From assembly GCA_003330885.1 (NCBI GenBank), contig CP030277.1, positions 1,984,001-2,048,000 on the forward strand: DNA of 64,000 nucleotides. The letters are read 5' to 3'. Each line of letters opens with the position of its first letter. Positions within the stretch are counted from its first letter, which is position 1. This DNA is from Rhodobiaceae bacterium. Its GTDB lineage: Bacteria > Pseudomonadota > Alphaproteobacteria > Parvibaculales > Parvibaculaceae. The notes under the pieces are model-generated. The model worked only from the letters and a program-made list of their open reading frames with translations. It ran no database searches and was not told where the DNA came from. Shown piece by piece: positions 47,247-51,908 of the stretch. The translations under genes and the position numbers were made by a program.

Positions 47247-48260
47247 ATGCACTTGAAGGCAGAGACGCTTGACGATCTGCTGATCGCAACCTTTGAAAGA
47301 TTGCTAAAACGCGGAAAGAGGATCACAGCAACTCGAGGAGAAACCTATGAACTTCAAGGTGTTTTGCTTGAATTGTCTGACCCACGCGCGAGATTAAGCC
47401 GCACAGAGTCAAAGGGGAAGGTCTTTAGTTCGCTAGGCGAACTGCTTTGGTATCTGTCTGGCACAAACTCTTTGGAGTTCATCAAATACTACTTGCCGAA
47501 GTATGAGGATGAGACCGAAGATGGAGCGACAATTTTTGGTGGATATGGACCTAGGCTGATCGACCATCACGGTCATAATCAAATCGAAAATGTTCTGAAG
47601 TTGTTGAAGGGCAATTCAAACTCAAGACGAGCAGTAATACAGGTATTCGATGCCGCCGACATCTCACGAACGCGCAAAGAAATTCCTTGCACATGCACAA
47701 TACAATTTCTACTTCGAGAGGAAAAACTAAACGCTATTGTGCATATGCGGTCCAACGATGCCTACTTTGGATTGCCTCACGATGTGTTCGCTTTCACATT
47801 TCTGCAGGAGATAATTGCGCGAAGCCTTGGCGCAGGACTCGGTACTTATAAACACTTTGTGGGCAGTCTACACCTTTACAGCGACTACGAGTTTCACGCT
47901 CACAGCTACATCGGGGAAGCCTACCAACCAACCACCAAGAAGATGCCCCCGATGCCGCCTGACACACCTTGGCAGTCTATAGAAAAAATTCTCAAAATTG
48001 AGTCCAAGCTGAGAGCTGACGAGCCAGTTCTGCTAAGTCAATTCTCTCTAGATTCATACTGGCTGGACTTGGCCAGAATCCTCCAGTTTTTTGCTGCCTC
48101 GAGGGGCCCTCAAATGGATGAAATCGAAATGGAACGCCTCAAATCGGAACTGGCAGGCTCAGTTTACGAGATGTATCTCAATGGCCGTACACGCACTATC
48201 GGCCCCCCGAACCTATCCGAACCAACTCTGCCGTTACTATTCGATCGAACGAACAAATGA
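47247..48260 (+). CDS. Thymidylate-synthase-fold enzyme, probable dNMP hydroxymethylase-like
   Basis: A 337-residue enzyme of the thymidylate synthase superfamily. The nucleophile is Cys148 in IPCTCTIQF; the phosphate-binding Arg pair is in SRRAVIQVF; the base and sugar loop is RSNDAYFGLPHD; the ribose His and Tyr are in SLHLYSDYEF (209 and 211). At the position of the Asn that reads uracil in ThyA (E. coli N177) this protein has Asp179, as in T4 dCMP hydroxymethylase. It also lacks the usual tryptophan-rich block after GELLWYLSGT. So it may act on dCMP, or transfer hydroxymethyl instead of methyl. It overlaps the AGPT-pyrophosphorylase gene by four bases. Confidence 0.85.
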   Translation: MHLKAETLDDLLIATFERLLKRGKRITATRGETYELQGVLLELSDPRARLSRTESKGKVFSSLGELLWYLSGTNSLEFIKYYLPKYEDETEDGATIFGGYGPRLIDHHGHNQIENVLKLLKGNSNSRRAVIQVFDAADISRTRKEIPCTCTIQFLLREEKLNAIVHMRSNDAYFGLPHDVFAFTFLQEIIARSLGAGLGTYKHFVGSLHLYSDYEFHAHSYIGEAYQPTTKKMPPMPPDTPWQSIEKILKIESKLRADEPVLLSQFSLDSYWLDLARILQFFAASRGPQMDEIEMERLKSELAGSVYEMYLNGRTRTIGPPNLSEPTLPLLFDRTNK

Positions 48261-49195
48261 GACCAATAGATACCGCTGATTTCACCAGCCTAGACAACAA
48301 ACTGAGCAGCTATGAAACAAACCATGGCGTTTTGCCTGGTATCTCACAACAGAACGCCCGACTGGTGTTGCTTGAGCAGCTAATAGAAAGCGTGCGGCGG
48401 GTAAAATTCCTCGAAACTATACAGGCTCGCCCCATTTCGAATACTAGGAAGGATCCTGCGAATCCGGGATTCGATCCCCTCAGAGCTGCATTACTATATG
48501 CACGCGATGGCAACCTAGACGAAGCCTGCTGGCTGGTGTTTCTCGCGATTCACTTTGGTAAGCACCACAAAGATGGCTGGCGGCTCGCGCGCGATGTGTA
48601 TGGAGCATTGCACAACTCCCCCGTATGGACGTGGGATCGGGTGGTTTCACACCGTTCAGAATTCAGAAAATGGATGGTTGAAAATGAAGCGACCCTGCAA
48701 ACAGACGGCGTATCTCGTCGTTTCGGAAACCACAGACGGTATGAAAGCCTTAAAGCAGACTCACCAAAAGGTACCCTTGCGGTAATCGATTCCTATATCG
48801 AATGGATCTCACCTCCACAAACTCATGCATCAAAATTTTCGAATGCGATAGCGTCGGTCGGCCAAGATCCCAAATTGGTCTTCGATGAGCTTTACAATTC
48901 CCTGAAACAGGTCACTCGATTTGGCCGTCTGGCAAAATTCGACTTCCTATGCATGCTGGGAAAACTGAGGCTTGCACCCGTAGAGGCACCATCCGCTTAC
49001 CTAAAAGAAGCGACAGGACCACTACGCGGTGCTCGATTAATTTTCGAAGGAAGTGTGAACTCCAAAACACCACCGGTCGACCTAGAAAGTAAGCTGCACG
49101 AATTGGGAACAAGCCTCGATCTTGGAATGCAGGTTTTGGAAGACGCACTCTGCAACTGGCAAAAAAGTCCGCAGAAGTTCGTGCCATTTCGCTAG
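48257..49195 (+). CDS. Alpha-glutamyl/putrescinyl thymine pyrophosphorylase clade 3 family protein
   Basis: A 312-residue protein that I recognise from its conserved helical blocks: FDPLRAALLYARDGNLDEA, HFGKHHKDGWRLARDVYG (99-116), RRFGNHRRYESL (154-165) and FGRLAKFD (222-229). The family was predicted from phage hypermodification systems; phage relatives of clade 2 phosphorylate 5-hydroxymethyluracil in DNA so that amines or amino acids can be attached. The fold is helical and DNA-glycosylase-like. Overlap with the TS-fold gene by four bases points to a shared pathway: one enzyme makes a hydroxymethyl base, the other activates it. The reaction of clade 3 itself is not established. Confidence 0.75.
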   Translation: MRPIDTADFTSLDNKLSSYETNHGVLPGISQQNARLVLLEQLIESVRRVKFLETIQARPISNTRKDPANPGFDPLRAALLYARDGNLDEACWLVFLAIHFGKHHKDGWRLARDVYGALHNSPVWTWDRVVSHRSEFRKWMVENEATLQTDGVSRRFGNHRRYESLKADSPKGTLAVIDSYIEWISPPQTHASKFSNAIASVGQDPKLVFDELYNSLKQVTRFGRLAKFDFLCMLGKLRLAPVEAPSAYLKEATGPLRGARLIFEGSVNSKTPPVDLESKLHELGTSLDLGMQVLEDALCNWQKSPQKFVPFR

Positions 49196-49205
49196 CAGAC
49201 TAGGA

Positions 49206-50288
49206 TCACATTTCGTTCCATCGGTATCGACGCTTCAACCAATTTAACTGGTTGTGCCTAATTCGCCCCATATGTTGCAACTGGCCAACGATAATTCCCG
49301 GGGAGACAGAACAGGCGTTCGCAAATCTCACTATCTCATATTTGCTAAGCTCGATCTCATGTAGCTTCTCCTGATACCCGTGAGGTATCAAGGTATCGAA
49401 TGAAAACTCATCAGCCTCAGCTTCTTCGGCTTGTGTGACATCTGAGTCGTCCTCAATAAATAGTGCGTTTTTGTCATGAAGGACTAGATGGCCCGCTTCA
49501 TGAAAAAAGGTAAACCAAAATTGATCATCGGAAAGGTACCGCATACTCAATAGGATAAGCGCCTTAGAAGGATTAGTGAACATCGTAGCTCCACTTGCTC
49601 GAGTTCCTTTTGGGGCACGCTGAATCACTACAGCTACACCACACTCTGCGCACAGAGAAACCAACTGGGAAAGAAATATTGAAGGTTGTTTGATTCTAGT
49701 GAGTTTCTTTATTTCACTCAGTGTCGAAGAAAACTTTCCAACATCCCATGGCTTGCATTGGATTTTCTCCGCAAGCTGGTGACCGCGACGCAACCAGGCA
49801 ATAGTTGAGTATTGGTCGACTTCATGTGTTGAAGATGCCCTAAAAGAAACAGCCTTCAGCTGCGTTTCATATTTCTCTTGCCATGCTTCGATACTTCCAG
49901 TCTCGAAGAACTTAAGACACTCCGAAAGTTTATCACCTCCACTCGCGACCCAGCCCATCTTTCGCATTTCATTGATAGGAAGTTGCGACAACCAAGCCCT
50001 GCCATCATCATCCGATATCTTCTTTGCACATTCATCAAGAAGGGCCTCATATCGAGACTGCCGATTGAGCCAATACTGCGAAGTCCCTCCCACGCTTACC
50101 TCTAGCTTCTCCGCGAGATCTTCTGTAATTGGCAATACACCGTCCAACAATTTGATCGCGTCATCGAGGCTCAACCCGACATGGATGGAGAACTCTTGCA
50201 GACCTATCTCACCTTTCGACAAAGCTGCAGAAATAGAAGATCCAGGAATCGAAAACCAAGTGGGATTGAAAGACACTGTCTCAGCCAT
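49206..50288 (-). CDS. HigA-type antitoxin fused to ImmA/IrrE metalloprotease
   Basis: A 360-residue protein. The N-terminal part (about residues 10-85) has a HigA-like HTH (ISAALSKGEIGLQEFSIHVG and TEDLAEKLEVSVGGTSQYW). The C-terminal part is an IrrE-like zinc protease with the active-site HEAGH at 263-267 and acidic residues in AEEAEADEFS for the third ligand. Proteases of this kind cleave repressors or antitoxins after a signal. The gene overlaps the HigB-type gene by eight bases. It may bind the palindrome in the promoter upstream and self-process or destroy a partner under stress, which is inference. Confidence 0.88.
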   Translation of the reverse strand: MAETVSFNPTWFSIPGSSISAALSKGEIGLQEFSIHVGLSLDDAIKLLDGVLPITEDLAEKLEVSVGGTSQYWLNRQSRYEALLDECAKKISDDDGRAWLSQLPINEMRKMGWVASGGDKLSECLKFFETGSIEAWQEKYETQLKAVSFRASSTHEVDQYSTIAWLRRGHQLAEKIQCKPWDVGKFSSTLSEIKKLTRIKQPSIFLSQLVSLCAECGVAVVIQRAPKGTRASGATMFTNPSKALILLSMRYLSDDQFWFTFFHEAGHLVLHDKNALFIEDDSDVTQAEEAEADEFSFDTLIPHGYQEKLHEIELSKYEIVRFANACSVSPGIIVGQLQHMGRIRHNQLNWLKRRYRWNEM

Positions 50289-50592
50289 TTTGAATCTCAA
50301 TCGCTGTAAGTTTAATCCGACCTATCTCGTGTAGTTGCAAATCAGCCCCAGCGTGGTTTGCCATAAAACAAATCGAAATTTGATCATCGACCGACAGCTC
50401 ATAGCTGATTTCACTGCCGCTGTCCTTCTTATTCAGTCCAAGGAAAACCAGGTCCTGCAATGACACTGCCGCTTCGAGGTCAGAAATGCGGTCTTTTAGC
50501 TTCGAGGCACGAACACCGCCGAACTTCCTGATCGCGACGTTCTCATGTTCGCAAAGTCTACGTAGACCCTTGGTCTCAAAAGCCAATTCCAA
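50281..50592 (-). CDS. HigB/RelE-like toxin component
   Basis: A 103-residue protein starting (M)ELAFETKGLRRLCEHENVAI, the typical beginning of HigB-like killer proteins of the RelE/ParE superfamily. The fold would be a small ribonuclease acting on ribosome-bound mRNA. The later part (ISYELSVDDQISICFMANHA) provides the beta-sheet. The start is TTG at 50592, giving the expected N-terminus; a TTG at 50613 would add seven residues. It is first in an operon with the HigA-ImmA fusion. Confidence 0.75.
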   Translation of the reverse strand: MELAFETKGLRRLCEHENVAIRKFGGVRASKLKDRISDLEAAVSLQDLVFLGLNKKDSGSEISYELSVDDQISICFMANHAGADLQLHEIGRIKLTAIEIQNG

Positions 50593-50643
50593 TCGTCCCG
50601 CCCACGTCGACAATCAACGAATCACGTCAAAGTACTGACGCAA

Positions 50644-50897: not shown

Positions 50898-51300
50898 ACA
50901 ATGTCACTACCTGACTTGTTCGGGTAATCCAGGGTTACAGAATAGAAGCCTGTACACGACGCTCTGGACCACCCGAATAAATCGGGTGGTGACAATAGTG
51001 TTTAGTGGGTTCTGCTGCAGACCATCCAACCAAAAGTGTCATTACCCGGCTTGTCCGGGTAATCCAGGGTGACAGAATAGAAGCCTGTACACGACGCTCC
51101 TGGACCACCCGAATAAATCGGGTGGTGACAATAGTGTTTAGTGGGTTTTGCTGCAGACCATCCAACCAAAAGTGTCATTACCCGGCCCAAGGGTCTGGCT
51201 TCGCCAGCCCGAGGATAAACTCGTCGGGTAATCCAGGGTTACAGAATAGAAGCCCGCGTTTGTCGCTCCTGGACCACCCGAATAAATCGGGTGGTGACAG
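50898..51300. repeat. Tandem array of about three 135-bp units, palindromic repeat family 1
   Basis: Two full units start at 51006 and 51141, exactly 135 bases apart, with the shared run CTGCAGACCATCCAACCAAA and nearly identical following sequence. A truncated unit precedes them at 50898-51005. Each has a left palindrome (TTACCCGGCTTGTCCGGGTAA) and a right one (CACCCGAATAAATCGGGTG). The third copy has an extra hairpin block inserted in its left palindrome (TCTGGCTTCGCCAGCCCGAGG). Another copy is at 51.74-51.87 kb. Confidence 0.85.
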
Positions 51301-51311
51301 CAGAGGCAGGA

Positions 51312-51668
51312 GAACGGTCGAGAAAAAAACTTATCCTCCCCCCTGTCTGAGACCCCATTTAATAGGGCATCTCCCGCCCATGTGAGGGGCGTGTCGACCG
51401 TTCAGTCAGGCGGGTGGGAGTGCGGCTTTCGGGCGGGAGAGTTGACGGCTTCCGTACCGGAGCAACCTGCAAGAGGACCGGAGAGACCCTCCGGGGCGGG
51501 CACTTAAGGCCCGGTCACGACCGGCGGATGAAAGTCCAACGGTACGGCCCGGGAAAAACAGGCGCTTAGCTCGGGATATGATGGATGGCAGCGATTGCAG
51601 CAGCCGCGCGCGGAGTGCCGGAAGGCCTCTAAAAAAGAAACACAGATGAGGCTTTGCGGCATTCCGCG
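51312..51668 (+). ncRNA. Candidate large structured RNA, no known family
   Basis: There is no credible gene here, but many perfect helices are present. GAACGGTCGA (51312-51321) pairs with TCGACCGTTC (51394-51403), 10 bp. CCGTACCG (51452-51459) pairs with CGGTACGG (51540-51547), 8 bp at long range, and encloses hairpins CCGGAG/CTCCGG (51478-51494) and CCGGT/ACCGG (51511-51524). At the end is a 20-bp stem with one G.G mismatch (51609-51629 with 51648-51668) around an A-rich 18-base loop. The strand is arbitrary, since no promoter or terminator was clear. It does not show the conserved cores of RNase P, tmRNA, SRP, 6S, cobalamin, TPP or glycine RNAs. Confidence 0.5.
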
Positions 51669-51741
51669 TCCCTCACGACCTAAACCAGACCTACAGACAT
51701 ACCGTTTATGTGGGCCGCGCAAGCGTGCCTAAACACTCAGT

Positions 51742-51869
51742 GTCATTAACCGGCCCACGGGTCTGGCTTCGCCAGCCCGAGGACAAACTCGTCGGGTAAT
51801 CCAGGGTTACAGAATAGAAGCCTGTACACGACGCTCTGGACCACCCGAATAAATCGGGTGGTGACAGTC
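51742..51869. repeat. Separate copy of palindromic repeat family 1
   Basis: It matches the variant third unit of the array at 51.17-51.30 kb, including the inserted hairpin TCTGGCTTCGCCAGCCCGAGG and the shared stretch GGTTACAGAATAGAAGCCTG. It ends with CACCCGAATAAATCGGGTG. The candidate structured RNA region lies between this copy and the array. Confidence 0.75.
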
Positions 51870-51908
51870 GTTATTTGGAGAAACTCAAGCGCACGAAAAC
51901 ACATGCCC

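Follow-up and report, generated by a model that had tools for sequence, protein, structure and literature searches.

A probable family of stand-alone structured RNA genes in Parvibaculum and its relatives

OLE, GOLLD and ROOL are orphan bacterial RNAs, independently encoded, elaborately folded and known from comparative genomics. They form RNA-only multimers (PMC12286853). The element described here is an orphan structured RNA gene of the same general kind (PMC12286853) and, by the comparisons below, a member of none of these classes. It shares their independent encoding and elaborate fold, but is shorter, chromosomal and multicopy, lacks a constant protein partner, and occurs in one alphaproteobacterial order and a small second one; the covariance models of the three classes, so far as they are in Rfam 15, do not match it. 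RNase P RNA (RF00010) is like the element in length, GC-richness and the presence of a pseudoknot. It was rejected as an identity, since the genome carries its own RF00010 copy (G000:C1:1925773-1926158, E = 5e-108) and the element does not match the model. A tmRNA was also rejected: ARAGORN reports neither tRNA nor tmRNA in the window, and there is no Rfam tmRNA match. The alphaproteobacterial sRNA families of Rfam (e.g., ar35, RF02346) are stand-alone intergenic RNA genes, some of them multicopy. In contrast to these, the element is larger and pseudoknotted and has no match among them; the only ar35 match, at locus L015, scores below the gathering threshold and lies about 600 nt from the element on the opposite strand. 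MITE-like repeats also occur as dispersed noncoding copies, but the element differs from them in its old conserved sites, its promoter-like head and its compensatory changes in single-stranded pairing, including the pseudoknot. No terminal inverted repeat common to the copies was seen by eye.

The window is a stretch of 64,000 nucleotides from a Rhodobiaceae bacterium (contig CP030277.1), in which a first-pass annotation proposed an undescribed large structured RNA at 51312-51668. That proposal is borne out by covariation in several helices and a pseudoknot, by conservation exceeding that of the neighboring genes, and by the comparison with Rfam 15 that the annotation had called for. The latter gave no credible match for the window copy (gathering cut-off and E <= 10, weak chance-like matches only) and nothing at or above gathering score for 20 homologous loci (E <= 1, again chance-like). 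A literature search for an RNA in Parvibaculum found nothing relevant. The family is thus unlisted, with no Rfam entry and no paper found that describes it. The limits needed shifting: the real unit spans about 51327-51680 and includes a promoter-like block. On the sequence comparisons that follow, 51327-51680 (+) is very likely a stand-alone structured noncoding RNA gene. Its features are as follows.

51327-51360, plus strand: promoter-like block, nearly invariant at the 5′ end of every copy across unrelated sites
51327-51336, plus strand: -35-like AAACTTATCC, sigma32-like by eye
51353-51360, plus strand: -10-like CCCCATTT, sigma32-like by eye
51361-51680, plus strand: putative structured noncoding RNA with predicted start and end (96% identity to congener G006; covariation)
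51371-51379 with 51412-51420, plus strand: P1 hairpin, CCCATGTCC/GGGCATGGG in genome G002 (partner permutation)
51382-51388, plus strand: 5′ strand of the pseudoknot, GTGAGGG, located in the P1 loop; partner strand 51670-51676 (partner permutation)
51422-51427 with 51602-51607, plus strand: P2 long-range helix (permutation; double-sided changes in four of six pairs)
51428-51461, plus strand: P3 hairpin, stems 51428-51432/51457-51461 and 51434-51439/51449-51454
51478-51494, plus strand: small hairpin CCGGAG/CTCCGG, window type only; G002 has CCGGAGG/CCTCTGG
51498-51512, plus strand: P4 hairpin GGGC-ACTTAAG-GCCC (double-sided changes in four of five pairs)
51526-51537, plus strand: P5 hairpin GGA-TGAAAG-TCC, GATAAAAG in other types (P5 covariation)
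51608-51620 with 51657-51669, plus strand: P6 terminal hairpin with an inner stem and an A-rich loop
51670-51676, plus strand: pseudoknot 3′ strand CCCTCAC after the last hairpin (permutation, pair counts)

The conserved block starts at the A-run before ACTTATCC (51323) and ends at 51679. Over this block (51323-51679) identity to the syntenic place in congener G006 is 96%, against 78-84% for the flanking and downstream genes there. The homologue in G002 is about 70-78% identical and precedes the same set of genes. One indel separates the block from that of G006 and several from that of G002, which argues against a conserved reading frame. Dispersed repeats of about 80-170 nt (GGGTAATCCAGGGTTACAGAATAGAAGCC...ACCACCCGAATAAATCGGGTGGTGACA) surround the RNA gene at 50902-51303 and 51739-51871. 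Further away, after uvrB, an island at 47247-50613 comprises a thymidylate-synthase-like gene (337 aa), a 312-aa unknown, a 364-aa gene with a helix-turn-helix and a metallopeptidase-like part (ImmA/IrrE type by eye) and a small gene. This island apparently has no connection with the RNA. The first-pass annotation placed the RNA next to a "modification island"; that setting is irrelevant, as the neighbors of homologous copies are unrelated.

In the proposed fold, P2 closes an inner domain that holds P3, P4 and P5, and the P1 loop pairs to the 3′ end. The helices of the window copy were assigned by analogy with other copies and then checked pair by pair. The consensus P3 of the Parvibaculum type is predicted by RNAalifold unaided, and its window pairs were checked, the outer part by hand; its loop reads AGTTGACGG in the window and GGTAACGG in G002. 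The P4 loop of other types is CACTACG. The P6 stem is invariant in the Parvibaculum-type alignment save for one G-C to A-U exchange. Counted from just after the -10 block through P6, the length ranges from about 170 to 310 nt among copies, a variation due to inner hairpins that are lost or gained and to exchange of the P6 top. The tops of many copies (e.g., L193, L194, L226, L236) carry repeated self-complementary hexamers, ACATGT or ACGCGT, which suggests that repeats, or separate molecules, may pair with each other. Two copies are shortened (L255 in G027, L259 in G024): they retain a small hairpin besides the 5′ block and run on into a downstream reading frame.

Support for this fold comes from partner permutation and pair counts across family copies, which reveal compensatory changes in excess of controls. 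For the permutation, 16 copies dereplicated at 70% were used, and the 5′ zones were paired with their own 3′ zones or with those of all other copies. The true partners stand out for P1 (z = 4.9, P = 5e-5), P2 (z = 5.3, P = 5e-5), P6 with a wide 3′ zone (z = 5.5, P = 5e-5) and the pseudoknot (z = 3.5, P = 4.5e-4), the test windows of the last and of P2 having been placed around helices that pairing had identified. For control zones shifted from these positions, z is -1.8, 1.2 and 1.7; the value of 1.7 belongs to the pseudoknot control, is marginal (P = 0.046) and shows that composition can produce a mild signal in C-rich and G-rich zones. Pairs were counted in a plain MAFFT alignment built from 16 copies of the Parvibaculum type, the window copy not among them. 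The named structure has double-sided changes in 15 pairs and 53 cells, compared with 9.3 pairs and 20.5 +/- 3.4 cells in shuffles; slid versions of the structure reach 3-6 pairs and 3-14 cells, all far below it. Without guidance, RNAalifold recovers P1, P3, P4, P5 and P6. P1 and most of P6 are nearly invariant within the Parvibaculum subtype, so that their support derives from the wider comparison.

The interval is also rich in pairing potential by itself. It contains seven perfect 8-bp inverted repeats against a shuffle mean of 0.87 (seven are reached by 0.4% of shuffles), and the plus strand of 51305-51690 folds with z = -3.2, a stability reached by 0 of 100 shuffles, compared with z = -0.6 for the minus strand. 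Comparison with homologues decides which of the helices first listed are real. All three are literally present in the sequence, and two of them do not belong to the RNA. In the 10-bp helix GAACGGTCGA/TCGACCGTTC (51312-51321/51394-51403), the left arm lies upstream of the conserved block and is absent from G006. The long-range 8-bp helix CCGTACCG/CGGTACGG (51452-51459/51540-51547) loses three of eight pairs in G006 and is missing in G002, and its left arm overlaps the conserved P3 hairpin. It had been judged hard to explain by chance; 47% of shuffles contain at least one perfect 8-bp match. The terminal stem of about 20 bp (51608-51669), by contrast, is helix P6 and is kept across the family with compensatory changes.

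The element is single-copy in the window genome (3.86 Mb). It is missing from most congeners and is therefore not essential. With the G002 copy as query, matches occur in 16 of 40 genomes from the bacterial family, often with several copies each. Because MAFFT aligned P1 in a different register for different subtypes, wider searches employed R1, a model built from sequence only and covering 93 positions at the 5′ end, instead of a structural covariance model. In the order that comprises Parvibaculum and its relatives, R1 finds about 80 places in 33 of 40 genomes, with 1-5 in each. Scanning named genomes for a DNA pattern gives carriers among Parvibaculum, Parvibaculaceae, Rhodobiaceae and similar MAGs, including Parvibaculum sedimenti and P. 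indicum; judging by these names, the order would be Parvibaculales. Among 385 sampled alphaproteobacterial genomes only one other group scores with R1, a small order (f121/g125) in which three of four genomes do so weakly, with 1-5 places each. Its elements are longer (about 500 nt), share the 5′ block, the GTAACGG loop and the CCGGACCGUCCGG hairpin, and are probably relatives. Seven loci from three genomes of this second order (L184, L185, L187, L188, L278, L280 and L281; G159, G262, G347) are about 500 nt long and have a GCCGAAGACCATCCG stretch in common. A single match (L062) falls in the betaproteobacterial Piscinibacter MAG ACE_PRO42, whose sample series also yielded Parvibaculum MAGs; its contig is probably mis-binned.

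Every copy is preceded by a near-invariant head, AAACTTATCC-N16/17-CCCATATT, which we take to resemble sigma32 sites. Its position and this resemblance suggest that the 5′ block serves as a promoter. A search of the window block for a sigma70-type promoter gave no match, no canonical terminator was found for the window element, and the literature yielded nothing on the promoter type. The strict -35/-10 motif occurs once each in G000, G006 and G011, where it belongs to the RNA itself, and once in G021, and is absent from six of six other genomes. In G021 the promoter-like block stands without the RNA before a peroxiredoxin gene (L263, G021:C7:415212-415280), a hint of a stress sigma factor.

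The RNA most likely belongs to a family of stand-alone, trans-acting noncoding RNA genes. One competing view, an unlikely one, treats the copies as a noncoding kind of mobile DNA, either MITE-like or the ornate end of a transposon, with a fold that is incidental or that helps the element to move. Copies are indeed dispersed at unrelated sites with sharp edges, and some are recent and near-identical within one genome (L199/L200 in G022; those of G012). However, flanking DNA is common to 136 pairs of copies from different genomes, so that many sites are old and shared between species; the first-pass suggestion of a mobile element's noncoding end thus finds no support in its simple form. Against mobility also stand the single copy in the window genome, the promoter-like block at one fixed place, and searches of mobile DNA: blastn with the window copy found no match in plasmids and phages, and none of six pattern matches in IMG/VR was scored by R1. 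Within-genome identity is 97-99% for the G012 copies and 94-97% for those of G022, compared with 75-85% (full-length copies) and 75-91%, respectively, against copies at the same site elsewhere. Such a pattern would fit concerted evolution, or else repeated replacement. Other genomes carry copies of different subtypes, and there the same-site copy is closer. The corresponding place in congener G004 is empty, as would be expected if the element moved, but it holds one of the direct repeats that flank the window copy (51224-51303 and 51792-51871). This fits deletion by recombination between the repeats, with insertion as the alternative.

Two further explanations keep an RNA and change what it does. 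The element may be an RNA machine of its own, either a ribozyme or a homo-oligomer in the manner of OLE, GOLLD and ROOL. The complex, pseudoknotted fold, the homogenised copies of some genomes, the self-complementary repeats in many P6 loops and the precedent of RNA-only multimers (PMC12286853) point in this direction, but Parvibaculum types are only about 170-310 nt long, Rfam models recognise no ribozyme core, and the window copy lacks the ACATGT repeat, which together leave this explanation improbable. Equally doubtful is its fuller form, a new class of RNA machine that would be driven by an alternative sigma factor, kept as several matched copies and represented by relatives of about 500 nt in a second alphaproteobacterial order. 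Least probable is that the element acts in cis, as a leader or riboswitch, or that it is distantly related to a known RNA but escapes the Rfam models. The few shortened 5′ copies that continue into a reading frame and the lone block before the peroxiredoxin gene would suit a leader, but the downstream genes vary (217 flanking ORFs fall into 151 clusters, with no constant neighbor gene) and the next gene downstream is mostly convergent. A known relative is disfavored by the chance-like matches of cmscan (window at E <= 10, 20 loci at E <= 1) and by the RNase P RNA encoded elsewhere in the genome.

Returning to the trans-acting RNA gene, a conserved promoter, probably for an alternative sigma factor, would be followed by an RNA of about 310 nt, transcribed perhaps under stress. 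The RNA would adopt a compact pseudoknotted fold in which the P1 loop is tied to the 3′ end, P2 closes a junction with P3-P5, and P6 is terminal, and would have a structural or regulatory role in trans. A protein would most likely bind at the conserved loops GTAACG, CACTACG and GATAAAAG. This molecular role is the least certain step of the explanation: that the RNA works bound to a protein, rather than as a ribozyme, an RNA-only assembly or otherwise, is put forward tentatively.

New classes of large structured bacterial RNA are rare and often have unexpected functions. The present family gives most of the genomes sampled in one order an RNA gene that is not yet listed. Given the strong covariation, the promoter-like head, the paralogues and the named carrier strains, its expression, deletion and structure are directly testable. 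The similarity of copies within some genomes, together with an exchangeable terminal hairpin, raises the question of why a bacterium would keep several matched copies of one complex RNA.
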